DNA of 64,000 bases from Punica granatum (lineage: Eukaryota; Streptophyta; Magnoliopsida; Myrtales; Lythraceae), in assembly GCF_007655135.1 (NCBI RefSeq), contig NC_045127.1:44713538-44777537 (forward strand). Direction: 5' to 3'. The translations under genes were made by a program, and so were the position numbers. The stretch's first letter is position 1. Each line of letters starts with the position of its first letter. The notes under the pieces were generated by a model, which worked only from the letters and a program-made list of their open reading frames with translations, had not been told where the DNA came from and made no database searches. Shown here one piece after another: positions 37,482 to 58,200 of the stretch.

Positions 37482-37486
37482 ATCAC
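37482..37486. repeat. Target-site duplication, left copy (ATCAC)
   Basis: These five bases directly precede the TG of the 5' LTR and are repeated exactly after the CA of the 3' LTR at 58196-58200. This defines the insertion of the retrotransposon. Confidence 0.95.
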
Positions 37487-40400
37487 TGTCAGCACCCAAT
37501 TTTGGTCCACCGGTTTCAGAGGGGCAGAATCGTCGTTTTTTTGCCGCCCGTGAGGAAAGTATTTCCGATTAATTGCCCGAGTATTCACGACTTTTCGGAT
37601 ATAGCATATTTTCCTAATCTAGCACCAATTTTATGATTTTTCAAAAATAATACTATTTTGGGACGTTTTCAAATTTCGCGTGCATCGACGTCAATTTTTA
37701 AAATTCGGGACAAAATTCGAGATTGAAAATAATTTTATCGCGTAATATCGATCATCAAATTTTTCGAAGCGTGATGGCGGTCTCGAATTATTTTTCCGAC
37801 GTCCGATCAAGAAGACGAGATTTTTAAATTTATACGCACGTCGATTTTGAAATTCAAAAAAAAAAAAAAAAAAGTCAGCAACGGTCAGAAGTCACTGACT
37901 TCTGACCGCTGCTCCTCTTTCATCATTTATTTTCCTGTTCTTCTTCTTCCTCTTTTCTTCTTTTCTTTCTCTTTTCTTTCCTTCTTCTTCTCCCTCCTGG
38001 CAGGGACGGACCCGAGCCTCCCGCGCCGCTGCACCCGAGCCTGCCACACGCCAACTCCTCTGCACACGCCAACGTCTTCCTCTTCACACGCGAATGGATT
38101 TCGTGCACGCGATTTCTCCCTCTCTCTCTCTCCTCTCTCTCTCGATTTCGGAACAAAACCGGAAGCTCACACGAAAATGGGGGGGGGGGGGAACAGATGA
38201 AAAAAATTTCCGGGCGCTCATCGATTCTCCCGGAAAAATTCCCACAGCCCACAGCTCGATCGATTTTCATTTTCCTTCAGCTCGCCCGAAACTCCCTCAG
38301 CTCCGGCTCTCTCTTCCTCCTCTCAGCTCACGAATTCCCTCAAAAAAATTCGGAGCTCGTACCTCGCGGCGGCCGAAATCCCACAGCTCGTCCACAGACA
38401 CACACGGCCGCAGATTCTCGGCGCCCCCGAGCCATTTACCGTCGTGTCTAGGAACCTTCGGAGGGCTCGAGCCTCCCTAGCCAACGTGGAGAAGCGGCTC
38501 GAGCCGCTCGGACCGGCCTTCCTGCCGACCAGGTGTTCTTCCTCCAATCGGGTCTGCCAAACCCAGCCGGGTACCCGAATCAGCTCAGTCCACCAGCAAC
38601 TCTCGGCCCGTTCCAGGCCAGCACAGGTCCAGCAACTCTCGGCCCATTCCGGCCGAGCACTGGTCCAACAGCATCTCGGCCCATTCCAGCCCAGCTCGGC
38701 CCAGTCTGGCCCAGCAGCCTAGCGCAGCCCAGTCCAAATCCCAGCAGGCTCACTCGGCCCAATCCAGTTCAGACCGGCCCAGCCCAACTCGCCCGCCAGT
38801 TTTATTTTTTTATTTTTTTATTTACAGAATCATCCCTCAACTTCCCGAACTAGGTAAATCCTCTACTTAGTGGCATGTTTAGGGCTCATTTGCCAAATAT
38901 CTACGTTTGCTTGGATGAATATGATGTGAAATGAGTGTTATTGGATCATGTGGGTGATCGGATTCGTCGCGAACTCGATTTTACGAACTTTTCATTTAGT
39001 CTCATTTCAGTCCAGAGGACGCATTTTTATTTTTTCAGATCTGCCCCGAATTTTAAAATTGTTTCCAGTCAAGTCCCGGTCATTCTAATATCTCCATATC
39101 AGTCCTGAACTTTTCGTAATTTTTAAACCAGTCCCTGAACTTTTCGAAATCTCCAGATCAGTCCTGAACTTTTCGGAATTTTTAGATCAGTCCCTAAACT
39201 TTTTGCAATTCAAATTAGTCCCTGAATTGTTCGGAATTTTCACATTAGTCCCTGAACCTTTCGAATTTTCACATCAGTCCCTGAGCTTTTCGGAATTTGC
39301 AAATCAGTCCCTTAACTTTTCGGAATTTTCAAATCAGTCTTGAACATTTTCCAAAGACATCCGGCCCTTTCCTACTTGGATCACCGACCAACAGCGCGTG
39401 TGCCATGTTTAAATATTTTATTATTGTAATTATATGTATACGGCATGACAACGTGTGTGCTTTGCATGATTTTCCGCTTTCCATGAATCGGTGCCGTTTT
39501 ATCGATTTCGTTGATATCGTGTTTGCGTGTATGTTTGTATGTGTTTATCATGATCATGGCGGCACCGGTTATGTAAATTTGTATGTTCGCCGTGCTTGAT
39601 GTGGTGATATGCTCTTGATCTGTGCTTAAAATGCTTTATCGTTTAAATCGAAACCTCTCATGAATCGGGTTAATCATGCAAACTCGACTTAAAATTAATT
39701 TTTAAATCCTAAGGCGATCGGGAATTAGGATTCGCATCGGACGGTCCATCAATGATCGGCTCGACGGTCCGAAACCCGAATATTTAGAGCATTTGGCAAA
39801 ACATTAATTAATTTAATCAATAATTTCACTAACGGGGTAATTGGACGTTCACACGATTAATTAATTCACTTGGCCCTAATAATTTTGTACGAATTGGTAA
39901 TAAACCGGTAACACGCGTCGATAAGTTGCAAACATGCGTTGGTGCCCTTCTCAAAACTTGCAAATTTTATAAAACTCGAGACGCGTAGTTCGATGTGACA
40001 TGGATGTCTAGGAAGGACTTGCGCGTCTTGACTCGAGGCCTCACCTGATTTCAGGAAACTCAGGTCTGGACGTGGAAGTTATTCTTAGATCACTTCCGGA
40101 TAGATTAACCGATCTTTTGGCTCTTTTAGGGTTCTTGACAACCCTGGAAGGTCCAGGGGATCGGTTAGCGCCGGTCACAGGCCGAGGTGGCCCGCACCGC
40201 GTAATCTCTCTTTCCCGAAAACAATTTTTATCTCAAGGGCAAAATCGTCTTTTGCAACCTAGCGACACCCCCCTAGGGTTAGAATAAGAGAAACATGCGG
40301 TATCAGGGTAGGGATGGGCTACCTATCTAGGCGCAGGTTCATCTGCATAGCCCGCCCTATCCGACCGATGAGTTTTTGTTATTCTAGCATAGTCTCGGGT

Positions 40401-41483
40401 AGTTAGTTCGGGTGGATTAGCTCAAAATACAAATACCGAATTAATTGTATACTCGGCTAAGACAAAATGGGCAATAGTGGGATAGGCACTAGGTTTTAGG
40501 ATGTACAGGCGGAATCAATGTTTGGTAATAACCTGTAACAACCGTAGTGTCACAACATAGAACAACCCTAAAAATAACCCACAAACACAAGGCTTGACAA
40601 CAGACGTCACGTACGTCAGGTCCTCATAAAATAATGCCAAATGCGAAATACCTTCCCGAGGCGATCCTTGATCGATTCACACCTTGTACCTACTTTGTTT
40701 GTTTTAGGGTAGGATTTGTATGCCAAGATACCCCGGTTAATAATCGGTTAATTCACGTAAATTCGGCAATAACAAAATCCCGTTGTTTGCTTATTTATGC
40801 CCGTTTTGTTACATTCTTGCACTTGTTTTGTTATGCGGATCGAGCTCGATCCCTTAGGATGCGACCCATAGGGGATCCAACGCCCCACCGTAGATCACGG
40901 GGTCTACCCCCCCTAACACTGAGCGCATCTTAATTTCAATTCCGGTCTTTTCAAACCACACGGTGAGCACGAGTGGAATAATAACCGAACGCGATTCGAC
41001 CGGGATTCAGTTGCTGTAATTTGTATTTTATTTATTTGAGAGGACAATGTAAGGATTTATGTTGTACATTTATTCATGTAAGAATCCCGGTCGGAGAGTG
41101 GACGGTCGGAGTGTTCCTTCGAATTTACGGTGTCAAAACGCGTAAGATGAGCGGAACCTAATTAAGCGGTAATTAAATTAAAATGGCAAGCCTAGACAAG
41201 CTAGAGTACCGATAGGGCATGCGAGATATAGGCTCGCATGTAACAGAACCCCCGAATTCGGAACTTCGGGTTTCGCAGACCATATGCCTTAGCAATTAGG
41301 TGTACCCCGTACCCCTAGACCCGGGTAACTTGCCGGCCCTCGACCTTCGGGTCGTAAAATGGCAAGTGGCGACTCCTTCTCACGTGCGTCCGTCGCGCGT
41401 CCCCGGGAAGGTGGACACTCCCAAGCCGCGTTGCATAGGCGCGCGCACGCGTGCCCCGACGAGATGAAATTCGGGTGCGCACA
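37487..41483 (+). repeat. 5' LTR
   Basis: The 3997-bp repeat starts TGTCAG and ends GCGCACA and is nearly identical to 54212-58195. It contains a poly-A and a CT-rich leader-like zone (37855-38200), a GC-rich zone rich in 'cggcccattcc' and 'gcccag' words (38440-38790), and a run of nine short units at 39097-39351. Short open frames inside it are low-complexity and occur in both LTRs; I do not regard them as genes. Confidence 0.97.
39097..39351 (+). repeat. Short tandem units inside the 5' LTR
   Basis: About nine units of 27-33 bp repeat the theme 'atcagtccctgaacttttcg' plus a T/A-rich spacer. The units have drifted apart, but both LTRs carry the same drifted order (55808-56062 in the 3' LTR). 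The repeat therefore predates this insertion. Confidence 0.8.
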
Positions 41484-42064: not shown

Positions 42065-43555
42065 ATGTCGCGCCCGGCCTCCTTTCCGCGCCTCGACAGG
42101 ATCACACCACCACTGGACGAAATCAACCGCATATGGATAAGCCTGCGCCGAATTGATCAGGACTACATCACCACCTTCGTCGGAGATGTACCTCTGTTGT
42201 CCGCTCGTCGGGTAGACTGGAATTTTCTCGGAGCTGCTGTAACGTTTTGGGATCCAGCACACGCCGTCTTCAACATCCAGGGCACCGAGCTCGCGCCTAC
42301 TATTGAGGAGTATAGGACCCTCATCGGCCGGACCACAGTCACTCACGGAATTATGGAGCCTAATTTCCAGACTACTCGACCAGTTCTAGTTTCGCGCCTA
42401 CTCGGGGTGCAAAGGTCTTCGCTGCAGGCCGAACTCGCATATTCCGGCGGTACAGAGATAATAACTGCGAAACTACTCCGTTTTATCGATTCACAATCAC
42501 GCGTGGTCCGAGGGGATCTTTTCCAAAAGAATTTGTGTCATGCAGTTTTACTTTTGATTTTTGGGACTCTTTTATTCCCTCGCGCAGCTGATCGTATAGA
42601 CGCAACTTTAGCTAGCGTCGTCCTCCAAGTGGTCGGAGGCCGCGAGTATGAGGTAGGCCTAGTGGCCGAGACTATCCGGTCCCTCGACCGCATCACACGA
42701 ACAGCTGATCGTAGGTTGAGAGGGTCCCCAATCCTCTTACAAATGTGGCTTCAAAGTCATGCAAACCCCTTCGGTCTCGTGAGGCCAGTCCTGTTTTTCA
42801 GTCGCTCGGGGTCGATCATTTCGCAGTTATTATCTCTGATACGTGTGGAAGAACGCAAGGTTTCCGAGTGGATCAAGATTTTTCGCGAAATACCACCTAG
42901 GGGCTTTAAGTGGCGAGCCGCGTGGATGCCACCCGGACCCGCAGCCCTTAGGTGCCCTGATTTTAACGGAGTACCACTCGTGAGTCATGCGGGGTCCACC
43001 ACATATTTTCCGGCACGAGTGATGAGGCAGTTTGGCAGCCTGCAGACAGTCCCCGAGGACACGGCACGGGCTAAATTCGAACACACTTGGCGGGAGGATC
43101 AGACATCCGTGGATCGCCAAAGAGACATCGAACGGGTTTTGGACGCGTGGCGAACCGTGGTCATCGAGCGTCCGTATTTCCCCGAGCATCCAACCCTTGA
43201 AGAACAGGATTTCCAGGCTACCGAGGAATATGTCCTCCGTTTCTATCGGTGGGGTCCTACAGCACACGAGGATCTCGCCGACTCTCCACGAGCTGAAGAT
43301 AACGGACCAACGGGAGCGTCTTTCACCCCGAACGTGGCCATTCAAGCAGAGCTTGCTAACCTCAGGGCCGAGAGAGATCACCTTCGTCGGGAAGTCGCAG
43401 AGAAAGACGAGCAGCTTGTGGATCAACGACAATTACAGAGAGAGCTCGCCCAGGCCCGCGCCGAGCTGCAGAGGCGCGAACAGGAGCTGGCACGAGCGAA
43501 TGTCGCCTTGGAGAGGTTCAGGAAGAGAGCCCGTGGAGGTCCACGCACCCCTTAG
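42065..43555 (+). CDS. Retrotransposon ORF1 (DUF7745-like, with C-terminal coiled coil)
   Basis: This 496-aa open frame lies upstream of gag, where Ogre-type elements carry an additional ORF1 of unknown function. The first half contains the phrases LGAAVTFWDP, FNIQGTELAPT and EEYRTLIGR, which I associate with the plant-retroelement domain DUF7745. The middle has DRRLRGSPILLQMWLQSH. Residues about 425-490 form a charged heptad-like helix (LRAERDHLRREVAEKDEQL and so on), a probable coiled coil, followed by a basic tail. The frame is intact from ATG to stop, unlike gag. Function is unknown; oligomerisation or RNA binding would fit the coiled coil and basic end. About 310 bp of noncoding sequence separates it from gag. 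Confidence 0.85.
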   Translation: MSRPASFPRLDRITPPLDEINRIWISLRRIDQDYITTFVGDVPLLSARRVDWNFLGAAVTFWDPAHAVFNIQGTELAPTIEEYRTLIGRTTVTHGIMEPNFQTTRPVLVSRLLGVQRSSLQAELAYSGGTEIITAKLLRFIDSQSRVVRGDLFQKNLCHAVLLLIFGTLLFPRAADRIDATLASVVLQVVGGREYEVGLVAETIRSLDRITRTADRRLRGSPILLQMWLQSHANPFGLVRPVLFFSRSGSIISQLLSLIRVEERKVSEWIKIFREIPPRGFKWRAAWMPPGPAALRCPDFNGVPLVSHAGSTTYFPARVMRQFGSLQTVPEDTARAKFEHTWREDQTSVDRQRDIERVLDAWRTVVIERPYFPEHPTLEEQDFQATEEYVLRFYRWGPTAHEDLADSPRAEDNGPTGASFTPNVAIQAELANLRAERDHLRREVAEKDEQLVDQRQLQRELAQARAELQRREQELARANVALERFRKRARGGPRTP

Positions 43556-43868
43556 GATAGACGCCTCCACCAGGCCCTCACCTGAATCGGTGCTCTCCAC
43601 GGCAACAGTCACTCGCACCCTGAGCGCGGTGGAAGAACGATTTAGGGCTTGTTTTTAATTGCATTGTATCTTAGAAACCTTTTGAATCAATGCGAGTGAC
43701 AACATTAGTTTTCAAATCCATGCATCTCATGCACGTCATCCCCTTATTTATTATGTCACACGTTTTTATTTTTAGAACGTAACTCGTTTGCGTAGATATT
43801 TACACACTTGTTAATACAGGTAACCATAACTGGCGCCACACCGTTATCTCACTCGTCTGCAATCGAAG

Positions 43869-45940: not shown

Positions 45941-47508
45941 TCAGTGTTTGCGCCATAGGGGAGTACGAGACCGGGCAGGAGCCATCCGCCCCGTTCGTAA
46001 TCGAATATGTGCCTGCGGAAACCGGTATAGGGTACGCGGGGTTTGATGCCACGCCCGCCCCATTCGTGATAGATGTCCCCGCACGAGAGCCATATCAAGA
46101 TAGCAAGGTTCCGTGGACCTACGAAGGGAGTGTCGGGAACCTCGAGCGTCAATTCAGCGTCATGGGCGTGACGCGCTCGGGACGAGTGTATGAAAACCCG
46201 GAGGTCGCGAACAAAGGAAAGGCGCCTGCTGCGACATTAGGAATCGCCCCGGAAGCTACGCCGATCCCACAAAAGAAGGTGACCGAAGAGGAAGCCGAGG
46301 CTTTTATGAAGATCATCAAGGCAAGCGAGTATAAGGTTGTTGAACAAATGGGCAAGTCTCCGGCCCACATTTCACTACTCGCCCTTCTCTTAAGTTCGGA
46401 GCCACATCGTGAAGCGCTCCTGAAGGTCCTGACGGCGGCACAGGTCCCCAAGGAGACGGCTCCAGATCTCATTGAAGAAACCGTTGGTTCGATATTCTCC
46501 AACAATATTTCATTCTCGGATGACGAGCTTCCCTCCGAAGGGTACGCACACTCGCGGGCGTTGCACATCGTCTGTAAGTGCAATAACTTCGTGGTAGGCC
46601 GGGTCATGATCGACAATGGTTCGGCTCTCAATGTATGCCCTTTTTCCACCCTGAAGCAGATGAATGTGGATCTGAATCGTATTCGTCCAAGCAAGACAGC
46701 GGTTCGAGCCTTCGATGGCTCGCGGAGAGAGGTGAACGGAGAGATCGACCTTCTGATCGAGGTAGGTCCATGTTCATTCAATGTCACTTTTCAGGTGCTC
46801 GACATCCCCAATGCCTTCAGCTTGCTGCTCGGGAGGCCATGGATCCATTTTGCGGGCGCAGTCCCCTCCACCTTGCACCAAAAGCTTAAGTTCATCGTGG
46901 AAGAGCGACTCATCACGGTCAAAGGTGAGGAGGACTATGCGATTTATAAGGAGACGGCTGTCCCCTATATCAGTATTGGGGACGATCAGAACCTCCCCTT
47001 CCATTCGTTCGACACCATCTCCGTCATCCGAGACTACGGAAAGGCCGGTCCGTCCCGCGCCGACCGCATGGTGGGGAAGATCTTGCTGCGCCATAATTAC
47101 ATTCCGGGTTCCGGACTCGGAGCACGTGGGCAAGGGATCAACCGCCCAATCGAGATCGAAGAGTACAAGAACAGGAGGGGACTCGGTTTTCGCCCTTCCT
47201 GCCACGAGATTATTGAAGCCCGTAGAGGCAAGCGCCTCCACCGTCTCGCAGCGTACTACGGGAAGATCAACAGGGGCACCCCAGTTCCGCCACTCTCCCA
47301 CTTCTTTTCAGGATCACAGCACATCGTCGGAGGTACTCTTGACGGCCCCTCCTCGGATTTAGACGACGCGCTTGTCGATCTGCCAGGCATATACGCCGTC
47401 ACCGAGGAGACTCCTTCAGGGGTCTACATCCGCCTCGCGCAGGAGAATGAGGAGCTCAACAACTGGACCTCAGTCCCGCGCTACTCGGCTGTAATCGCCG
47501 ATGTGTAA
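45883..47508 (+). CDS. Retrotransposon protease region with G-patch-like segment
   Basis: This frame follows gag and overlaps its end, offset by -1. It is open from 45844 and has no ATG near its start, so it was probably translated as a continuation of gag. The aspartic protease lies around residues 230-330: the active-site strand reads MIDNGSALN (DNG in place of the usual DSG/DTG), followed by ALNVCPFSTL and, about 70 residues on, the LLGRPW strand typical of retropepsins. Residues about 395-440 form a glycine-rich stretch (GSGLGARGQG, then RRGLGF) that resembles a G-patch RNA-binding motif. The frame ends at a stop that overlaps a GTAAGG donor-like sequence, consistent with the intron listed at 47505-47715. 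Confidence 0.82.
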   Translation: MQVNPLPDHGSSSGPSINMISVCAIGEYETGQEPSAPFVIEYVPAETGIGYAGFDATPAPFVIDVPAREPYQDSKVPWTYEGSVGNLERQFSVMGVTRSGRVYENPEVANKGKAPAATLGIAPEATPIPQKKVTEEEAEAFMKIIKASEYKVVEQMGKSPAHISLLALLLSSEPHREALLKVLTAAQVPKETAPDLIEETVGSIFSNNISFSDDELPSEGYAHSRALHIVCKCNNFVVGRVMIDNGSALNVCPFSTLKQMNVDLNRIRPSKTAVRAFDGSRREVNGEIDLLIEVGPCSFNVTFQVLDIPNAFSLLLGRPWIHFAGAVPSTLHQKLKFIVEERLITVKGEEDYAIYKETAVPYISIGDDQNLPFHSFDTISVIRDYGKAGPSRADRMVGKILLRHNYIPGSGLGARGQGINRPIEIEEYKNRRGLGFRPSCHEIIEARRGKRLHRLAAYYGKINRGTPVPPLSHFFSGSQHIVGGTLDGPSSDLDDALVDLPGIYAVTEETPSGVYIRLAQENEELNNWTSVPRYSAVIADV

Positions 47509-47715
47509 GGCTATCTTTGTAGACGATGTTTCCCGCGTGTCGGCAAAGTCATAAGCCACACGACGGAAGAGGGGTTTTTGTTATGGCATCAATGTTCCCA
47601 CCTTCAATGAAATCCCTACATGCATTTTTGAATTCTCGTGTCTCCTTCGTTTCCTTCTCTCTTACTCATTCGCAGCACTTTAAATATTTCTAAGACGACT
47701 CGTTTAAATTTCCAG
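47505..47715 (+). other. Candidate 211-bp intron between protease and reverse transcriptase
   Basis: The donor is GTAAGG at 47505 and the acceptor is TTTCCAG ending at 47715. The upstream exon ends two bases into a codon and the downstream frame needs exactly one base before its first full codon at 47717, so removal keeps the frame. The polymerase frame has a stop at 47705-47707, inside the intron, and no ATG near its start. Ogre elements are known to carry a spliced intron between protease and reverse transcriptase. Splicing itself is inferred, not seen. Confidence 0.75.
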
Positions 47716-47716
47716 G

Positions 47717-50700
47717 CTCCACTCGAATCCAAATCTTCGACGCGTCGATTCGAACCCATCCGAAGAACTCCTCGAAGAGCCCCAACCCATATACTTCGGG
47801 GAAGGGCTCGACGAGGACGGTCGAGTGCCTGAGATAGAGGAGAGTTTGCACCGCCTCGAGAACCGTCAACTCACCTCAGTTGAGCCAACAGAAGAAATCA
47901 ACATAGGCACTGAAGAGGAACCTCGCACGCTAAAGATCGGGACGGGCCTCGATCCAACACAACGAGCTCGGATGATCGATTTCTTGAAGGAGTACCAAGA
48001 GGTCTTTGCCTGGTCCTACGCCGACATGCCGGGCTTAGATCCGTCGATAGTCAAGCACTCTCTCCCACTCGATACAGAGAACTTCCCGCCCAAACGGCAA
48101 CACCTACGGCGGCAGCGAGCCGGCCTTCTCCTCCGCATCAAGGAGGAGGTCGTCAAGCAGATAAATGCGGGATTCCTAGAAGTCTGCAATTACTCTGAAT
48201 GGGTGGCAAACATCGTGCCCGTGGAGAAAAAGGACGGAAGGGTCAGGGTTTGCGTCGACTATCGGGACCTCAACAAGGCTAGTCCTAAAGACAACTTCCC
48301 TCTGCCTCACATCGACGTCTTGGTCGACAACACCGCGCGCCACAATCAGTTCTCCTTCATGGATGGCTTTTCGGGGTATAACCAAATCCGGATGGCTGAA
48401 GACGACAAGATCAAAACGACTTTCATCACGATGTGGGGCACGTTTTGCTACAAGGTCATGCCCTTCGGGCTCAAAAATGCCGGGGCAACCTACCAACGGG
48501 CAATGGTTACGCTCTTCCACGACATGATGCATAAGGAGATCGAGGTCTACGTCGACGACATGATCGCAAAGTCCAAGGAGGGAGAGGATCACCTCGTCAA
48601 TCTGAGGCGTCTCTTCGAACGTCTCAAGAAGTACAAGCTTAGGCTCAACCCGGCCAAGTGCACATTCGGCGCGAAATCCGGAAAACTGCTAGGATTTGTG
48701 GTCAGCGAACGAGGCATCGAGGTCGATCCTGACAAGGTGAAAGCGATTAGGGAGTTACCTCCGCCATCAACAGTGCGCGAGGTACGGAGCTTCTTAGGAC
48801 GACTGAACTACATCGCGCGTTTCATCGCGAACTTATCAGATAAGTGTCAACCCCTCTTCCGGCTGCTTCGTAAAAATGCAGCAATTGAATGGGACGACGA
48901 TTGTCAGAAGGCCTTTGACGATATTAAGACATACTTAGTTCAGTCGCCGGTGTTGGTCCCGCCCACGCCAGGTCGACCTCTCATTCTTTACCTGACGGTG
49001 CGCCGGCAATCATTGGGGTGCATGCTGGGACAAGAAGATGAGTCCACACGCGCAGAACATGCCATCTACTATCTGAGCAAGAAGTTTACTGAAGGGGAAT
49101 CCAATTACCCGGAGATTGAGAAGATGTGCTGCGCACTGGTGTGGGTCATGCAGAGACTTCGACAGTACACCCTCTATCACACTATCCGCTTGCTGTCGAA
49201 AGCGGATCCCCTGAAATATCTACTTGGTAGCCCATCCTCCATGAGGAACATTGCAAAGTGGCGCTGTCAACTGACGGAGTACGACATCGAGTATGTGCCC
49301 CGCACATCAGTCAAGGGGCAAGCAATTGCAGACCATTTGGCGGAATTTCCCATCGAGGATGACACGCCGATCAACTCCGACTTTCCAGACGAAGGGATCC
49401 TCCGAGTAGATGAGGAGGAGGATGGGACCGCGTGGAAGATGTATTTCGACGGCGCGGTGAATTCCACCGGTTCTGGTATCGGCGCAGTGCTGATATCCCC
49501 GGACGGACGTTATTACCCGATTGCAGCAAAAGTTAATTTTCTCTGCACCAATAATGTGGCCGAATACGAGGCATGCATCCTTGGCTTGCAAGCAGCGATT
49601 GATTTCAAGGTGAAGGAGCTAGAAGTGTTCGGAGATTCAATGCTCACAATCTTCCAAACGTTAGGGCAATGGAAGACGAAAGACGCAAAGTTAGTACCAT
49701 ACCACGAGTATCTCGAGGAGTTAGCGGAGAACTTCGAGAAAATCTCGTTCACCTACACGCCACGTATCAAGAATCAGTTTGCAGATGCACTTGCGACACT
49801 GGCATCAATGGTGAGCATCACAAAAGAAAACCTCATCGAGCCACTTGAGATCGAGATTGCCAAAGGCCCGGCTTACTGCGACACAATCGAGGCGACCGAT
49901 GAACAGCCATGGTACGAAGACATCAAACATTTTCTGCAAACTGGCCAATACCCGACATTTGCCAACCGTCGGGACCGGAAAACACTTAGGCGACTCACAG
50001 CGCATTACTTCCTGAGCGGAGAGACTCTCTACCGCCGTTCCTTCGACGCCACGCTACTCCGGTGTGTTGACGAAAACGAGGCACAACGCCTCATGGGAGA
50101 GATACATGAAGGGAGTTGTGGACCCCATATGAGCGGTCTCATGCTCACCAAGAAACTCATGCGCCTAGGTTACTTTTGGTCCACCATGGAGGCCGACTGC
50201 GCCAAACACGTCAGACACTGCCACTTGTGCCAGGTCTATGCCGATCAGATCAAAGCACCCCCCAATGAGCTACGCCCGATGGCGGCCCCGTGGCCCTTTT
50301 CAATGTGGGGCATTGACGTGATCGGCCCTATCAATCCCAAAGCATCCAATGGACACATGTTCATTTTGGTGGCAATTGACTACTTCACCAAGTGGATCGA
50401 GGCCATAACGCTCGCTTCGGTCACCGCAAATGCCGTGGCACGTTTCCTTAAGCGCGACATCATCGCCCGATATGGAGTCCCCGAAACAATCATCACCGAC
50501 AATGCTAAGAACCTGAACAACAGGATCATCGATGAGCTTTGTGAGCGATTCAAAATACACCACCGCAATTCCACACCATACCGTCCCCAAATGAACGGTG
50601 CGGTGGAGGCTGCGAACAAAAACATCAAGAGGATCATCGAGAAAATGACGGTGACCTATAAGGATTGGCACGAGATGCTCCCTTTTGCGCTCTTGGCATA

Positions 50701-51157
50701 TCGAACGTCCATCCGCACTTCAACCGGGGCAACTCCGTACTCCCTAGTCTACGGCATGGAAGCAATCCTCCCAATCGAAGTGGAGATTCCCTCCATGAGG
50801 GTCCTCGCCGAGTCCAAGCTCGAAGAAGCAGAATGGGCGAAGCAGCGCTACGAACAGCTCAATCTCATTGACGAGAAACGGCTAACAGCGCTCTGCCACG
50901 GTCAATGCTACCAACAAAGAATGGCTCGAGCGTTCAATGCAAGGGTTCGCCACCGCGAATTCCGCCCCGGTGATCTCGTCCTACGAAAGGTCTTGCACAT
51001 CACACCTGACTCTCGGGGCAAGTTTGCATACAAGTATGATGGACCTTTCGTCGTCAGGGAAGTCTTCTCCGGAGGGGCAATTATCCTAAGCGATATGGAC
51101 GGGACCGAAAACGCACTCCCGGTCAATGCCGATGCCCTTAAGAAGTACTACCCTTAA
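47717..51157 (+). CDS. pol: Retrotransposon pol: reverse transcriptase, two RNase H regions, integrase
   Basis: The frame is open from just before 47717 to the stop at 51155-51157 with no internal break. Counting residues from 47825, reverse transcriptase spans about 80-360 with VDYRDLN, FMDGFSGYNQI and the catalytic YVDDM near 240. An RNase H-like region follows (about 383-480), but its first strand reads LYLTVRRQSLG, lacking the usual aspartate. A second RNase H at about 537-660 has an intact MYFDGAVN start, the EYEACI helix and GDSML. Integrase begins with an H-H-C-C zinc finger (about 759-803, ending CHLCQ), then the D, D, E catalytic positions near 829 (GIDVIGP), 890 (ITDNAKN) and 928, and a YDGPFVV module near the C-terminus. 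There is no chromodomain. No ATG lies at the start; expression would depend on splicing or read-through from gag-protease. Confidence 0.95.
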   Translation, partial: LHSNPNLRRVDSNPSEELLEEPQPIYFGEGLDEDGRVPEIEESLHRLENRQLTSVEPTEEINIGTEEEPRTLKIGTGLDPTQRARMIDFLKEYQEVFAWSYADMPGLDPSIVKHSLPLDTENFPPKRQHLRRQRAGLLLRIKEEVVKQINAGFLEVCNYSEWVANIVPVEKKDGRVRVCVDYRDLNKASPKDNFPLPHIDVLVDNTARHNQFSFMDGFSGYNQIRMAEDDKIKTTFITMWGTFCYKVMPFGLKNAGATYQRAMVTLFHDMMHKEIEVYVDDMIAKSKEGEDHLVNLRRLFERLKKYKLRLNPAKCTFGAKSGKLLGFVVSERGIEVDPDKVKAIRELPPPSTVREVRSFLGRLNYIARFIANLSDKCQPLFRLLRKNAAIEWDDDCQKAFDDIKTYLVQSPVLVPPTPGRPLILYLTVRRQSLGCMLGQEDESTRAEHAIYYLSKKFTEGESNYPEIEKMCCALVWVMQRLRQYTLYHTIRLLSKADPLKYLLGSPSSMRNIAKWRCQLTEYDIEYVPRTSVKGQAIADHLAEFPIEDDTPINSDFPDEGILRVDEEEDGTAWKMYFDGAVNSTGSGIGAVLISPDGRYYPIAAKVNFLCTNNVAEYEACILGLQAAIDFKVKELEVFGDSMLTIFQTLGQWKTKDAKLVPYHEYLEELAENFEKISFTYTPRIKNQFADALATLASMVSITKENLIEPLEIEIAKGPAYCDTIEATDEQPWYEDIKHFLQTGQYPTFANRRDRKTLRRLTAHYFLSGETLYRRSFDATLLRCVDENEAQRLMGEIHEGSCGPHMSGLMLTKKLMRLGYFWSTMEADCAKHVRHCHLCQVYADQIKAPPNELRPMAAPWPFSMWGIDVIGPINPKASNGHMFILVAIDYFTKWIEAITLASVTANAVARFLKRDIIARYGVPETIITDNAKNLNNRIIDELCERFKIHHRNSTPYRPQMNGAVEAANKNIKRIIEKMTVTYKDWHEMLPFALLAYRTSIRTSTGATPYSLVYGMEAILPIEVEIPSMRVLAESKLEEAEWAKQRYEQLNLIDEKRLTALCHGQCYQQRMARAFNARVRHREFRPGDLVLRKVLHITPDSRGKFAYKYDGPFVVREVFSGGAIILSDMDGTENALPVNADALKKYYP

Positions 51158-51355
51158 TGGCCTCTTTGTCATCCGGCGGTTTCTTTGTGTTCTCGGAGGT
51201 TTCAGGCTACCGTCCAGGCCCTTATCTTCCTCTGTCTTCCTTTGGGCTCTGTGCCATTTCACCTCACCACATTTTCTATTTATCACGCACGTGTCCTGTC
51301 CATTCAATTCTTCTCATCTAAGGATACTTCAGAGAGAAAAATAATAATTTTCCCG

Positions 51356-51639
51356 CTAGGTCGAAAACCTCCTTGAGGCGGCCTAGGCAAAAGTTAGGGA
51401 ACGAGGGGCACGACTTAAAATCCCGCAAAGGGGAGTCGTGGCAAAAGGAGAGCGCAAATCAATTTCTCGCTAGGCCGAAAACCCGCAAAGGGCGGTCTAG
51501 GCAAAAGTTAGAGGAACCGAGAGGTGCGATCAGACCCGGACAGGGGCGATCGTAGCAAAAGGTGAGCACTCATGTGAGAAAAGTCAAATAAAATACCCCG
51601 CTAGGTCGTTACTCATCCTACGGCCTAGGCAAAAATTAG
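51356..51639 (+). other. Five alternating stem-loops in the retrotransposon 3' UTR (A-B-A-B-A)
   Basis: Type A hairpins pair CTAGGYCG with CGGYCTAG: 51356-51363 with 51379-51386, 51470-51477 with 51493-51500, and 51601-51608 with 51621-51628. Each has an 8-bp stem, with G-T wobble in the variable positions. Type B hairpins have 7-bp stems of different sequence: 51409-51415 (CACGACT) with 51434-51440 (AGTCGTG), and 51525-51531 (TGCGATC) with 51548-51554 (GATCGTA). Four of the five have a smaller inner stem, usually CCC facing GGG. All five are followed immediately by GCAAAA: type A continues GTTAG or ATTAG, type B continues GGAGAGC or GGTGAGC. The block lies 200 bp after the pol stop. It looks like a structured RNA signal. 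Function is unknown. Confidence 0.72.
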
Positions 51640-52285
51640 GGGCAATTGTCGGCTTGACCACGAAAGAACAGCGGCACTTCGCGTGAAGCTACAGCTAGTA
51701 GTGGTTCGGCAGTCCTCGACGCAAGCAAACTCTCTTCGACTCTCCAGGCTCGAGACATGCCTCGAAATGGGGTCGAATCGTCGTATCCTTAATTTGGAGG
51801 ATCCTAAAGATCCCTCCCTTTACCTTTACTCAAAACTCTGCGGGCCATGCCCCTCCTTGTAAAAAAGCCTTTCTTTTAGTCAAGTACATGTCACATTCGG
51901 GGACACGGCCGCCCCTCAAATGGCCACTGTGTCCAAATCCCCGAAGCATCGCTACATAGATTTCCTTTGCACATCGTAATTCCAGCGGTATTGCGTGACT
52001 GACAACGACCGTTAGCCGCTATTCCTTGTGTGCAGGTGTGAGCATTCGGATCCTGAAAGGTGTCTCTTCCTGACGGACTCATGTCTGCCTTATGCGACAA
52101 GACGAAATCCCAATCCGAGCGGATGACCCTCAAGGAGACACACAACGCCCAATCCTGCGACAAGCGACGAACAACGCTTGCCACGGCACCGTCATAAGCA
52201 CAATATGAGCTCGAATCCAACGGATCATGGCCTTCGCCCTCCGGCGCCCTGCGTCGTCCCCCAACATTAGTCATTGCTTCTACAT

Positions 52286-53956
52286 TCCATCTTTACCGCT
52301 TTTCGGACTCCGCGTCCAGGACTCCGTGTCCATCTTTACTGCTTTTCGGACTCCGCGTCCAGGACTCCGTGTCCATCTTTATTGCCTTCCGGACTCCGCG
52401 TCCAGGACTCCGTGTCCATCTTTATTGCTTTTCGGACTCCGCGTCCAGGACTCCGTGTCCATCTTTACTGCTTTTTCGGACTCCGCGTCCAGCACTCCGT
52501 GTCCATTTTTACTGCTTTTCGGACTCCGTGTCCATCTTTACTGCTTTTCGGACTCCGTGTCCAGGACTCCGTGTCCATCTTTACTGCTTTTCGGACTCCG
52601 CGTCCAGGACTCCGTGTCCATTTTTACTGCTTTTCGGACTCCGCGTCCATCTTTACTGCTTTTCGGACTCCGCGTCCAGGATTCCGTGTCCATCTTTACT
52701 GCTTTTCGGACTCCGCGTCCAGGACTCCGTGTCCATCTTTACTGCTTTTCGGACTCCGCGTCCATCTTTACTGCTTTTCGGACTCCGCGTCCAGGACTCC
52801 GTGTCCATCTTTACTGCTTTTCGGACTCCGCGTCCAGGACTCCGTGTCCATCTTTACTGCTTTTCGGACTCCGCGTCCATCTTTACTGCTTTTCGGACTC
52901 CGCGTCCATCTTTACTGCTTTTCGGACTCCGCGTCCAGGACTCCGTGTCCATCTTTACTGCTTTCGGACTCCGCGTCCAGGACTCCGTGTCCATCTTTAT
53001 TGCTTTTCGGACTCCGTGTCCATCTTTACTGCTTTTCGGACTCCGCGTCCAGGACTCCGTGTCCATCTTTACTGTTTTTCGGACTCCGTGTCCAGGACTC
53101 CGTGTCCATCTTTACTGCTTTTCGGACTCCGCGTCCAGGACTCCGTGTCCATTTTTACTGCTTTTCGGACTCCGCGTCCATCTTTACTGCTTTTCGGACT
53201 CCGCGTCCAGGACTCCGTGTCCATCTTTACTACTTTTCGGACTCCGCGTCCAGGACTCCGTGTCCATCTTTACTGCTTTTCGGACTCCGCGTCCATCTTT
53301 ACTGCTTTTCGGACTCCGCGTCCAGGACTCCGTGTCCATCTTTACTGCTTTTCGGACTCCGCGTCCAGGACTCCGTGTCCATCTTTACTGCTTTTCGGAC
53401 TCCGCGTCCATCTTTACTGCTTTTCGGACTCCGCGTCCATCTTTACTGCTTTTCGGACTCCGCGTCCAGGACTCCGTGTCCATCTTTACTGCTTTCGGAC
53501 TCCGCGTCCAGGACTCCGTGTCCATCTTTATTGCTTTTCGGACTCCGTGTCCATCTTTACTGCTTTTCGGACTCCGCGTCCAGGACTCCGTGTCCATCTT
53601 TACTGCTTTTCGGACTCCGTGTCCAGGACTCCGTGTCCATCTTTACTGCTTTTCGGACTCCGCGTCCATCTTTACTGCTTTTCGGACTCCGCGTCCAGGA
53701 CTCCGTGTCCATCTTTACTGCTTTTCGGACTCCGCGTCCAGGACTTCGTGTCCATCTTTACTGCTTTTCGGACTCCGCGTCCATCTTTACGGCTTTTCGG
53801 ACTCCGCGTCCATGACTCCGTGTCCATCTTTACTGCTTTTCGGACTCCGCGTCCATCTTTACTGCTTTTCGGACTCCGCGTCCAGGACTCCGTGTCCATC
53901 TTTACTGCTTTTCGGACTCTGCGTCCAGGACTTCGTGTCCACCTTTACTGCTTTTT
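52286..53956 (+). repeat. Tandem repeat array in the retrotransposon 3' UTR (43- and 29-bp units)
   Basis: Units begin CGGACTCC and end with the spacer 'atctttactgctttt'. The long unit (43 bp) has two 13-bp modules (ggactccgcgtcc and ggactccgtgtcc) and the short unit (29 bp) has one, so the two lengths differ by one module plus one base. Each module is a small inverted repeat, GGAC-5-GTCC. From 52549 a block of nine long and five short units (531 bp) repeats at 53080 and partly at 53611. Decayed units continue to about 54050. The array has no stop codon in any forward frame, which creates long artificial open frames. Tandem repeats in the 3' UTR are known from Ogre/Tat elements and can seed satellite DNA. 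Confidence 0.93.
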
Positions 53957-54197
53957 AAAATTCTTGTTCACTTTTACTGCTTTCCGGATTTCGTGTCAAC
54001 CTTTATCGCTTTTAGGACTTCGTGTTCACATTTATTGCTTTACGAACTTTAGCTCTGCATTTGCTTGCCATGACTCCTTTGTCTTTTTCCTCCCACAAAC
54101 AAGTCCGTTGCATCTGAGAGAATGGCCAGGTGGTCGTCAAGACCGAACGGGTGCTTCTCATTATCTTTGGCTGCACCCTCTATCCGAGCACGCAACC

Positions 54198-54210
54198 AAA
54201 GAGGGGCAAG
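54198..54210 (+). promoter_or_regulatory. Polypurine tract
   Basis: The purine-rich stretch 'aaagaggggcaag' (one C) lies one base before the 3' LTR and is where plus-strand synthesis would be primed. Confidence 0.8.
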
Positions 54211-54211
54211 C

Positions 54212-57200
54212 TGTCAGCACCCAATTTTGGTCCACCGGCTTCAGAGGGGCAGAATCGTCGTTTTTTTGCCGCCCGTAAGGGAAGTATTTCCGATTAATTG
54301 CCCGAGTATTCACGACTTTTCGGATATAGCACATTTTCCTAATCTAGCACCAATTTTATGATTTTTCAAAAATAATACTATTTTGGGACGTTTTCAAATT
54401 TCGCGTGCATCGACGTCAATTTTTAAAATTCGGGACAAAATTCGAGATTGAAAATAATTTTATCGCGTAATATCGATCATCAAATTTTTCGAAGCGTGAT
54501 GGCGGTCTCGAATTATTTTTCCGACGTTCGATCAAGTAGACGAGATTTTTAAATTTATACGCGCGTCGATTTTGAAATTCGAAAAAAAAAAAAAGTCAGC
54601 AACGGTCAGAAGTCACTGACTTCTGATCGCTGCTCCTCTTTCATCATTTATTTTCCTGTTCTTCTTCTTCCTCTTTTCTTCTTTTCTTTCTCTTTTCTTT
54701 CCTTTTTCTTCTCCCTCCTGGCAGGGACGGACCCGAGCCTCCCGCGCCGCTGCACCCGAGCCTGCCACACGCCAACTCCTCTGCACACGCCAACGTCTTC
54801 CTCTTCACACGCGAATGGATTTCGTGCACGCGATTTCTCCCTCTCTCTCTCTCTCTCTCTCTCTCGATTCCGGAACAAAACCGGAAGCTCACACGAAAAT
54901 GGGGGGGGGAACAGACGAAAAAAATTTCCGAGCGCTCATCGATTCTCCCGGAAAAATTCCCACAGCTCGATCGATTTTCATTTTCCTTCAGCTCGCCCGA
55001 AACTCCCTCAGCTCCGGCTCTCTCTTCCTCCTCTCAGCTCACGAATTCCCTCAAAAAAATTCGGAGCTCGTACCTCGCGGCGGCCGAAATCCCACAGCTC
55101 GTCCACAGACACACACGGCCGCAGATTCTCGGTGCCCCCGAGCCATTTACCGTCGTGTCTAGGAACCTTCGGAGAGCTCGAGCCTCCCTAGCCAACGTGG
55201 AGAAGCGGCTCGAGCCGCTCGGACCGGCCTTCCTGCCGACCAGGTGTTCTTCCTCCAATCGGGTCTGCCAAACCCAGCCGGGTACCCGAATCAGCTCAGT
55301 CCACCAGCAACTCTCGGCCCGTTCCAGGCCAGCACAGGTCCAGCAACTCTCGGCCCGTTCCGGCCGAGCACTGGTCCAACAGCATCTCGGCCCATTCCAG
55401 CCCAGCTCGGCCCAGTCTGGCCCAGCAGCCTAGCGCAGCCCAGTCCAAATCCCAGCAGGCCCACTCGGCCCAATCCAGTTCAGACCGGCCCAGCCCAACT
55501 CGCCCGCCAGTTTTATTTTTTTATTTTTTTTATTTACAGAATCATCCCTCAACTTCCCGAACTAGGTAAATCCTCTACTTAGTGGCATGTTTAGGGCTCA
55601 TTTGCCAAATATCTACGTTTGCTTGGATGAATATGATGTGAAATGAGTGTTATTGGATCATGTGGGTGATCGGATTCGTCGCGAACTCGATTTTACGAAC
55701 TTTTCATTTTGTCTCATTTCAGTCCAGAGGACGCATTTTATTTTTTCAGATCTGCCCCGAATTTTAAAATTGTTTCCAGTCAAGTCCCGGTCATTCTAAT
55801 ATCTCCATATCAGTCCTGAACTTTTCGTAATTTTTAAACCAGTCCCTGAACTTTTCGAAATCTCCAGATCAGTCCTGAACTTTTCGGAATTTTTAGATCA
55901 GTCCCTAAACTTTTTGCAATTCAAATTAGTCCCTGAATTTTTCGGAATTTTCACATTAGTCCCTGAACCTTTCGAATTTTCACATCAGTCCCTGAGCTTT
56001 TCGGAATTTGCAAATCAGTCCCTTAACTTTTCGGAATTTTCAAATCAGTCCTGAACATTTTCCAAAGACATCCGGCCCTTTCCTACTTGGATCACCGACC
56101 GACAGCGCGTGTGCCATGTTTAAATATTTTATTCTTGTAATTATATGTATACGGCATGACAACGTGTGTGCTTTGCATGATTTTCCGCTTTCCATGAATC
56201 GGTGCCGTTTTATCGATTTCGTTGATATCGTGTTTGCGTGTATGTTTGTATGTGTTTATCATGATCATGGCGGCACCGGTTATGTAAATTTGTATGTTCG
56301 CCGTGCTTGATGTGGTGATATGCTCTTGATCTGTGCTTAAAATGCTTTATCGTTTAAATCGAAACCTCTCATGAATCGGGTTAATCATGCAAACTCGACT
56401 TAAAATTAATTTTTAAATCCTAAAGCGATCGGGAATTAGGATTCGCATCGGACGGTCCATCAATGATCGGCTCGACGGTCCGAAACCCGAATATTTAGAG
56501 CATTTGGCAAAACATTAATTAATTTAATCAATAATTTCACTAACGGGGTAATTGGACGTTCACACGATTAATTAATTCACTTGGCCCTAATAATTTTGTA
56601 CGAATTGGTAATAAACCGGTAACATGCGTCGATAGGTTGCAAACATGCGTTGGTGCCCTTCTCAAAACTTGCAAATTTTATAAAACTCGAGACGCGTAGT
56701 TCGATGTGACATGGATGTCTAGGAAGGACTTGCGCGTCTTGACTCGAGGCCTCACCTGATTTCAGGAAACTCAGGTCTGGACGTGGAAGTTCTTCTTAGA
56801 TCACTTCCGGATAGATTAACTGATCTTTTGGCTCTTTTAGGGTTCTTGACAACCCTGGAAGGTCCAGGGGATCGGTTAGTGCCGGTCACAGGCCGAGGTG
56901 GCCCGCACCGCGTAATCTCTCTTTCCCGAAAACAATTTTTATCTCAAGGGCAAAATCGTCTATTTGCAACCTAGCGACACCCCCCTAGGGTTAGAATAAG
57001 AGAAACATGCGGTATCAGGGTAGGGATGGGCTACCTATCTAGGCGCAGGTTCATCTGCATAGCCCGCCCTATCCGACCGATGAGTTTTTGTTATTCTAGC
57101 ATAGTCTCGGGTAGTTAGTTCGGGTGGATTAGTTCAAAATACAAATACCGAATTAATTGTATACTCGGCTAAGACAAAATGGGCAATAGTGGGATAGGCA

Positions 57201-58195
57201 CTAGGTTTTAGGATGTACAGGCGGAATCAATATTTGGTAATAACCTGTAACAACCGTAGTGTCACAACATAGAACAACCCTAAAAATAACCCACAAACAC
57301 AAGGCTTGACAAAAGACGTCACGTACGTCAGGTCCTCATAAAATAATGCCAAATGCGAAATACCTTCCCGAGGCGATCCTTGATCGATTCACACCTTGTA
57401 CCTACTTTGTTTGTTTTAGGGTAGGATTTGCATGCCAAGATACCCCGGTTAATAATCGGTTAATTCACGTAAATTCGGCAATAACAAAATCCCGTTGTTT
57501 GCTTATTTATGCCCGTTTTGTTACATTCTTGCACTTGTTTTGTTATGTGGATCGAGCTCGATCCCTTAGGATGCAACCCATAGGGGATCCAACGCCCCAC
57601 CGTAGATCACGGGGTCTACCCCCCCTAACACTGAGCGCATCTTAATTTCAATTCCGGTCTTTTCAAACCACACGGTGAGCACGAGTGGAATAATAACCGA
57701 ACGCGATTCGACCGGGATTCAGTTGCTGTAATTTGTATTTTATTTATTTGAGAGGACAATGTAAGGATTTATGTTGTACATTTATTCATGTAAGAATCCC
57801 GGTCGGAGAGTGGACGGTCGGAGTGTTCCTTCGAATTTACGGTGTCAAAACGCGTAAGATGAGCGGAACCTAATTAAGCGGTAATTAAATTAAAATGGCA
57901 AGCCTAGACAAGATAGAGTACCGATAGGGCATGCGAGATATAGGCTCGCATGTAACAGAACCCCCGAATTCGGAACTTCGGGTTTCGCAGACCATATGCC
58001 TTAGCAATTAGGTGTACCCCGTACCCCTAAACCCGGGTAACTTGCCGGCCCTCGACCTTCGGGTCGTAAAATGGCAAGTGGCGACTCCTTCTCACGTGCG
58101 TCCGTCGCGCGTCCCCAGGAAGGTGGACACTCCCAAGCCACGTTGCATAGGCGCGCACACGCGTGCCCCGACGAGATGAAATTCGGGTGCGCACA
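54212..58195 (+). repeat. 3' LTR
   Basis: The 3984-bp repeat matches the 5' LTR at about 99%. The differences I counted are mostly C/T and G/A changes, with small length changes in the poly-A, poly-G and CT runs and an 8-bp gap near 54964. The nine-unit short tandem run is at 55808-56062. Confidence 0.97.
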
Positions 58196-58200
58196 ATCAC
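58196..58200. repeat. Target-site duplication, right copy (ATCAC)
   Basis: Identical to 37482-37486. The unrelated host sequence resumes immediately after it. Confidence 0.95.

Follow-up and report, generated by a model that had tools for sequence, protein, structure and literature searches.

We report a compact array of RNA hairpins in the 3' untranslated region (UTR) of an Ogre-type long terminal repeat (LTR) retrotransposon of pomegranate (Punica granatum), which, judged from sequence comparison, probably works as a cis-acting RNA element on the sense full-length transcript. The stretch analyzed, hereafter the window, comprises 64,000 nucleotides of contig NC_045127.1 (assembly GCF_007655135.1, positions 44,713,538 to 44,777,537 of the forward strand), and all coordinates count from its first letter. 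Five hairpins of two alternating types, A1-B1-A2-B2-A3, lie at 51346-51645 on the plus strand, and in all five the hexamer GCAAAA directly follows the 3' arm, just as the initial annotation of this DNA, made from the letters alone, had described. The array begins about 200 nt past the pol stop (51157) and 2.6 kb ahead of the 3' LTR (54212), outside coding sequence.

Unit A1 (51350-51401) is built from an outer stem (51350-51354/51397-51401), an inner stem (51356-51363/51379-51386) and a cap stem (51368-51371/51375-51378), with its GCAAAA at 51387-51392. Unit A2 (51463-51516) has its outer stem at 51463-51468/51511-51516, its inner stem at 51470-51477/51493-51500, its cap stem at 51482-51484/51490-51492 and its GCAAAA at 51501-51506. 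The B1 unit (51409-51453) consists of a stem (51409-51416/51433-51440), an AAAAT bulge (51417-51421), a cap (51422-51424/51430-51432), GCAAAA (51441-51446) and the tail GGAGAGC (51447-51453), and B2 (51525-51567) of a stem (51525-51532/51547-51554), GCAAAA (51555-51560) and the tail GGTGAGC (51561-51567). In A3 (51596-51642) the outer stem is at 51596-51599/51639-51642, the inner stem at 51601-51608/51621-51628 and GCAAAA at 51629-51634. A1, A2 and B1 share a common plan of stem, 5' AAAA bulge and cap stem of 3-4 bp. The inner CCC/GGG stem noted in the initial annotation is absent from A3, which forms a 9-bp stem with a 10-nt loop. In the A units an extra outer stem of 4-6 bp encloses the hairpin together with GCAAAARTTA, and these outer stems covary between units (TTCCC/GGGAA, TTTCTC/GAGGAA and CCCC/GGGG). 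A purine-rich tail follows each hairpin. The A and B hairpins look like variants of one repeat. When the five units are compared in a register set by hand, because MAFFT left the 5' arms of the window's A and B units out of register, 39 of 40 stem cells are paired and seven of eight pair columns have changed on both sides; in 200000 trials in which the 3' letters were redealt, the same pairing was reached in 2 and the same number of columns in 392.

In the window GCAAAA occurs 38 times on the plus strand, and the five occurrences whose hexamer is immediately preceded by the end of a stem scoring at least 6 (each G·U pair counting one half) are the five units themselves. On the minus strand such a stem precedes 3 of 27 occurrences, and among random positions it is found at 678/20000 in the window and 345/20000 in the internal region of the element. 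A strict pattern for the A hairpin matches A1 and A2 only (mean in shuffled sequence 0.00, n=100), A3 being missed because its loop is shorter than the pattern allowed. Among 252 segments of 150 nt scored on the sense strand, the best of the block (z -3.58) comes third, behind one at 47684 and one in the satellite. Neither a tRNA nor a known RNA family could be matched to the array: no Rfam family reached its gathering score anywhere in the window, and at E<=2 over 51100-52300 the single weak match (51187-51300) fell under the cut-off and outside the array. Protein coding across the array was likewise rejected, as the longest stop-to-stop frame touching it spans 77 aa, and a search with the frame 51322-51552, which touches the array, returned no candidate protein. 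Searches for relatives elsewhere found none in viral contigs or prokaryote genome contigs, which are unlikely places for plant DNA, and the 25 records returned from plasmids were all remote matches of <60% identity.

Copies of the array are abundant in the host genome. The string that ends the A hairpin, CGGYCTAGGCAAAA, has 1154 + 1026 = 2,180 exact matches in the pomegranate assembly (320 Mb, 474 contigs), against 2 + 1 = 3 for the same string read backwards. From among the matches listed of these 2,180 we sampled 80 loci, all on one contig (C1, 9.76-21.33 Mb) and comprising every listed match bar two neighbours near 21.35 Mb. Each sampled locus holds, by choice, at least one exact A 3' end; the B stems were unselected. 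Flanking sequence divides the loci into 47 that belong to the window's own family (F1) and 33 of a second family (F2). Pairing and conservation in F1 are given for 46 distinct rows, namely 45 loci and the window, after one partial array (L087) was dropped and one locus identical to the window (L012) was merged with it. F1 identity medians draw on 46 loci, without L087, of which 37, 45, 46 and 46 cover the four segments described below. All 33 loci enter the F2 counts, and loci L001-L008 and L091-L120 are outside every count.

Across the F1 rows the hairpins remain paired while their letters change, as the initial annotation had asserted from the five units of a single copy. The inner stems are paired in 96.2% (A1), 93.7% (B1), 94.3% (A2), 91.8% (B2) and 94.0% (A3) of cells, the outer A stems in 92.1% (A1), 80.1% (A2, where the sixth pair is mostly A-A) and 94.0% (A3), and the cap stems in 96.2% (A1), 93.5% (B1) and 95.7% (A2), whereas the B2 cap stem, paired in 60.1%, is unsupported. 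Pairs have changed on both sides in five of the eight positions of B1 and four of the eight of B2. The check for covariation among related copies that had been suggested for the array was made with a tree-aware control (custom script), in which the simulations, run as 3 x 400, preserve the tree and the number of changes in each column, and the observed pairing goes beyond it: 2849 of 3120 cells are paired, compared with 2445±70, 2502±73 and 2484±72 in the three sets, and none of the 1,200 simulations (highest value 2717) reaches the observed count. When the changes are placed on the tree, 68-69 on internal branches keep pairing and 17-19 break it, compared with 131-133 and 133-134, respectively, on terminal branches, whose changes also comprise post-insertion decay (internal versus terminal, Fisher p ~1e-6). 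Such a pattern would be expected if selection acts while the lineage is active and copies decay once they have inserted.

The structure holds on the sense strand. RNAalifold scores the F1 alignment at -53.2 in the sense and -19.9 in the antisense direction, and column shuffling of the sense alignment (n=30) yields -13.2±3.3. An A·C mismatch in the sense RNA corresponds to a G·U pair in the antisense RNA, and A·C cells number 155 against simulated means of 287-309, under the smallest value of all 1,200 simulations; the strand asymmetry is a loss of A·C, not a gain of G·U. These observations bear directly on the idea that the array acts as DNA or in antisense, through protein-binding sites or the structure of an antisense transcript. 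Antisense open reading frames (ORFs) are known from the corresponding region in Retand, a sister lineage (PMC11963269), but with the antisense fold the weaker one, the pairs that only an antisense RNA could use depleted, and the longest frame touching the array as short as noted above, we give this explanation almost no credence.

Conservation of the unpaired positions adds a second kind of evidence. Within F1, the GCAAAA following the hairpins matches the window at a mean of 0.97-0.99 (the lowest single position, 0.87, is in B2) and the AAAA bulges at 0.99-1.00. In B1 the bulge positions reach 0.98-1.00, the GCAAAA positions 0.96-1.00 and the tail GGAGAGC 0.97, with the B2 tail at 0.92, whereas the arms of B1 and B2 are only 0.80-0.84 identical though 92-94% paired; figures of this kind for the A units are partly owed to the choice of loci, and those for the B units are free of that effect. 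Stem letters that are free to vary, joined to unpaired letters that are fixed, would be the usual mark of a protein-binding RNA. On a larger scale, median identity to the window, given here without a computed chance level, is 0.78 at the end of pol (37 loci), 0.74 in the stretch after the stop (45), 0.85 over the array (46) and 0.83 over the next 200 nt (46; 51646-51850). Conservation is thus not limited to the hairpins but extends about 200 nt past the array. The pyrimidine-rich stretch between the pol stop and the array (51158-51345) evolves fast and is alignable by blastn in 9 of the 47 F1 loci.

The second family places the array in a different setting. F2 accounts for 33 of the 80 sampled loci, and in the three copies examined gag, the protease region and pol were undetected in all. 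The copy L041 has LTRs that are 95-97% identical and about 5.3 kb apart, contains no stop-to-stop frame of 200 aa and gives no tblastn match to gag, the protease region or pol; between the LTRs its similarity to the window element is limited to the leader, the remains of the ORF1 end, the array (at 83%) and the start of the polypurine tract (PPT)/LTR. In the 6 kb fetched of L124, the leader and the array are present with no match to ORF1, gag or pol, and in the 6 kb fetched of L125 the array is present with no match to gag or pol. F2 thus keeps the leader in both copies where it was fetched and the PPT/LTR start in the one copy where it was. The order of units in F2 is A-B-B' (seven loci inspected; all 33 align through B'), and so the alternating five-unit layout described by the initial annotation is not shared by this family. 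Its stems are nonetheless paired, in 98.5% (A), 96.0% (A outer), 91.7% (B) and 92.1% (B') of cells over the 33 copies, and the inner two pairs of the B stem are double-changed between families, being mostly TT/GA in F1 and mostly CG/CG in F2. Because the array is kept where gag and pol are undetected, its role would therefore be in cis on the RNA that carries it rather than in the translation of pol.

Two further observations were made on the F2 copies. Upstream of their arrays (for example in L040 and L027, at about 140-270 in the oriented loci) lies a pair of small GCGGGAAAAACCCGC-like hairpins followed by CAA. L125 also keeps, at 2-1015, part of the ORF1 frame (residues 156-493, 77.5% identity), suggesting that ORF1 may be of importance for certain non-autonomous copies. 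A candidate packaging-like signal ahead of gag, at 43437-43726, had matched L041; it proved to be the ORF1 remnant (40% over 99 residues), and with ORF1 also retained in L125, another copy in which gag and pol went undetected, the candidate was rejected.

A third family was identified by its pol rather than by the hairpins, its copies matching protein P0074 at up to 88%; this protein is 70-74% identical to the window's pol. In all three copies fetched (L121-L123) the same five units occur in the same order at 83-87% identity, so that the array is present in close relatives and the A-B-A-B-A order is common to both pol-bearing families examined. The array starts 170-180 nt past the end of the pol match. 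By 50-nt bins, identity is 72-96% over the array and 70-84% over the following 200 nt (from 51630), with the stretch after the stop (51180-51330) at chance level. The satellite of L121 is a different repeat, and yet the array is kept. Judging from these copies, the array is unlike the hypervariable 3' UTR satellites of Tat elements, as it shows no turnover between related families.

This distinction matters for the proposal that the array is a functionless tandem duplication of a hairpin whose arms are kept complementary by templated correction, in the manner of the satellites in this 3' UTR. Tandem repeats are frequent between pol and the 3' LTR in Retand (PMC11963269), and a 43/72/115-nt satellite lies just downstream of the array in the window. 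Yet the array is older than the insertion, because 25 of 111 aligned bases distinguish its two AB halves, compared with 39 of about 4000 between the LTRs; the array persists in L121 despite a different satellite there; A·C cells are avoided; and pairing is lost mainly on terminal branches. We consider a functionless origin highly unlikely.

An effect on gag-pol mRNA deserves somewhat more attention. The array might protect the mRNA or promote its translation, for instance by shielding a transcript whose 3' UTR is very long from nonsense-mediated decay, with help from the pyrimidine stretch; its closeness to the pol stop in the window and, in the third family, to the point where the pol match ends would suit such a role, as would the pyrimidine content between stop and array (64.9% C+T over 51158-51351). 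That stretch is unconserved, however, which led us to reject the pyrimidine tract and hairpins acting together as a decay shield, and the array persists in F2 copies without detected gag or pol, one of three still having ORF1. A role in translation or decay is thus unlikely, and of the functions that the initial annotation listed for an RNA signal (packaging, export, translation or 3'-end formation), the selected RNA structure underlying all of them is upheld while the service to pol translation is disfavored. A role in reverse transcription, through strand transfer, plus-strand priming or a second PPT, strikes us as quite improbable. The purine-rich tails behind the hairpins would be in keeping with it, and the A3 tail and the PPT/LTR junction share AGGGGCAA..TGTCRGC where 0.01 chance matches are expected, but blastn finds no longer similarity between the two, and the third family does not keep the motif, having GGGGAC or GGGGCC as its A3 tail. 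A second PPT at the A3 tail was rejected on these grounds.

We therefore return to the array as a cis-acting element of the sense full-length transcript, and several points weigh against this interpretation or temper it. The fold of a single copy scores modestly: the comparison with shuffled sequence proposed for the block gave, over 321 nt, z -2.31, with one shuffle in 100 doing equally well. The 401 G·U cells show no enrichment over the simulated means of 452-530. Cells with changes on both sides exceed the tree null only mildly (74 against 46±13, highest simulation 83), and the case is therefore carried by the pairing as a whole, the scarcity of A·C and the events on branches. Taken alone, F2 is weaker, with 749 of 792 cells paired against 684±28 (highest simulation 752) and p = 0.10 for branch events. 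Some unpaired parts are variable, namely GTTA of A1 (0.80), the cap loop of A2 (0.81) and the loop of A3 (0.56). Sampling by an exact A end on one contig will have missed decayed arrays and other A stems. Lastly, the F2 array could be inherited by descent, and its retention is not proof of need.

With these points in mind, a mechanism can be outlined. The stems would serve as a scaffold whose letters are free to change, and the unpaired A-rich parts (the AAAA bulge, the GCAAAA at the 3' foot and the GAG-type tails) would be the part that is read. Repetition of the hairpin would create a multivalent docking site, and most likely a protein would bind several modules together and commit the RNA to mobilization, that is, to the export and trafficking of full-length RNA, to its selection by Gag, or to both. 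As to the step served, these two are jointly the likeliest; export or trafficking is possible, if doubtful when taken singly, and recognition by Gag for packaging stands on the same uncertain footing. Our fuller proposal, held tentatively and with slightly less than even confidence, is that the array is a modular 3' RNA address whose hairpin-GCAAAA modules are bound jointly by Gag or by a plant export factor, and which, together with the leader and the PPT, would render even RNA lacking gag or pol mobilizable. If this is correct, the array would represent a defined cis signal by which a plant LTR retrotransposon has its genomic RNA exported or packaged, and it would give partners without gag and pol their handle for parasitizing autonomous elements. 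It offers a possible route to explaining how such partners could be mobilized, provides a structural landmark for the annotation of Ogre 3' UTRs and, being short, present in high copy and mapped to stems and conserved unpaired bases, is directly testable.

The host is a young Ogre element with near-identical LTRs and an open pol frame. Its 5' LTR (37487-41483, with TG..CA ends) and 3' LTR (54212-58195), both on the plus strand, are 98.55% identical (39 mismatches in 4001 aligned columns) and are flanked by the 5-bp target duplication ATCAC (37482-37486 and 58196-58200). Pol (47825-51157, plus strand), whose best protein match is at 99% to a Punica granatum protein, encodes reverse transcriptase (RT), RNase H (RH), an additional RH and integrase (INT); Pfam places RT_RNaseH at 382-486, RVT_3 at 541-659 and integrase from 748, so that the additional RH stands between RH and integrase, as in the Ogre lineage. 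ORF1 (42065-43555) carries a plant mobile domain (PF10536 and PF24924, DUF7745) and is followed by gag and by an ORF with a G-patch domain at the place expected for protease; pol has an ORF of its own, the preceding one ending at 47508 and the pol frame opening at 47708. According to PMC6317226, the Ogre branch of Tat has a plant mobile domain ORF upstream of gag in 57% of elements and carries the additional RH between RH and integrase. Ogre elements are further characterized by gag-protease and RT-RH-INT ORFs with a spliced intron between them and by a primer binding site for tRNA-Arg. We assign the element to this branch because its mobile domain and the place of its additional RH agree with that description, and the Pfam domains bear out the Tat/Ogre identity given in the initial annotation.

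Other features of the element were recorded in passing. A presumed PPT (54198-54211, plus strand) is preceded by a hairpin whose 3' arm overlaps it (54165-54211; CTTTGG.../...CCAAAG); the hairpin is readable in L121-L123, where one pair is G-C, G·U or A-U. The satellite of the window is made of GGACTCCGYGTCC hairpin-like units and, at 52286-54049, occupies most of the remaining 3' UTR, the different repeat of L121 being of the TTTCGGGTACGTCCCGACTAC type. Both LTRs (39098-39351 and 55809-56062) contain the 30-nt tandem repeat ATCAGTCCCTGAACTTTTCGGAATTTTCAA. On the antisense strand, the coiled-coil-like end of ORF1 (43484-43640) folds as a single very long hairpin (z -6.17, a value matched by 0 of 200 shuffles). 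Protein P0011, which shares 63% identity with the window's pol, is assigned to Salmonella enterica; its contig of 8.3 kb is probably plant contamination of that assembly.

Retroviral 3' RNA elements lie near the 3' end of the RNA, as the array does, and the constitutive transport element (CTE) has both a 3' UTR position and A-rich internal loops, though it is one element with two related loops rather than five separate hairpins. In structure and strand the array resembles elements of the kind of the CTE or the direct repeats (DR) of Rous sarcoma virus (RSV), as it has both the 3' noncoding position and the conserved sense structure. In type D retroviruses (Mason-Pfizer monkey virus, MPMV, and simian retrovirus, SRV), the CTE stem-loop binds the export receptor and serves the export of unspliced RNA (PMC3856414); it works through TAP/NXF1. 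The same source describes the RSV DR, which flank src, as acting in cis on unspliced RNA, with reported effects on export and on several stages of the viral life cycle; they are like the array in being a repeated noncoding element and unlike it in being 115-nt repeats flanking a gene of an animal retrovirus, hairpin-GCAAAA modules not being known from them, and we claim no sequence relation between the two. The RNA transport element (RTE) of mouse intracisternal A particle (IAP) elements and the MusD transport element (MTE) are structured export elements of LTR retrotransposon RNA that act via NXF1/NXT1, RTE with RBM15, and of which MTE comprises a pseudoknot and a kissing-loop (PMC12786077). 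The tandem repeats in Tat/Ogre/Retand 3' UTRs share with the array the region, the element group and an apparent origin by tandem duplication, but the array is conserved between families and its stems covary. The study of the Retand pol-to-LTR region is concerned with antisense ORFs and tandem repeats, and in the parts consulted we saw no RNA structure (PMC11963269). In the literature within reach of our search, which left out most subscription-journal papers, we found no description of such a hairpin array. Retroelements with cis-acting RNA elements in their 3' part are known; this family of elements, its modular hairpin plan and its sharing with partners that lack gag and pol appear to be new.
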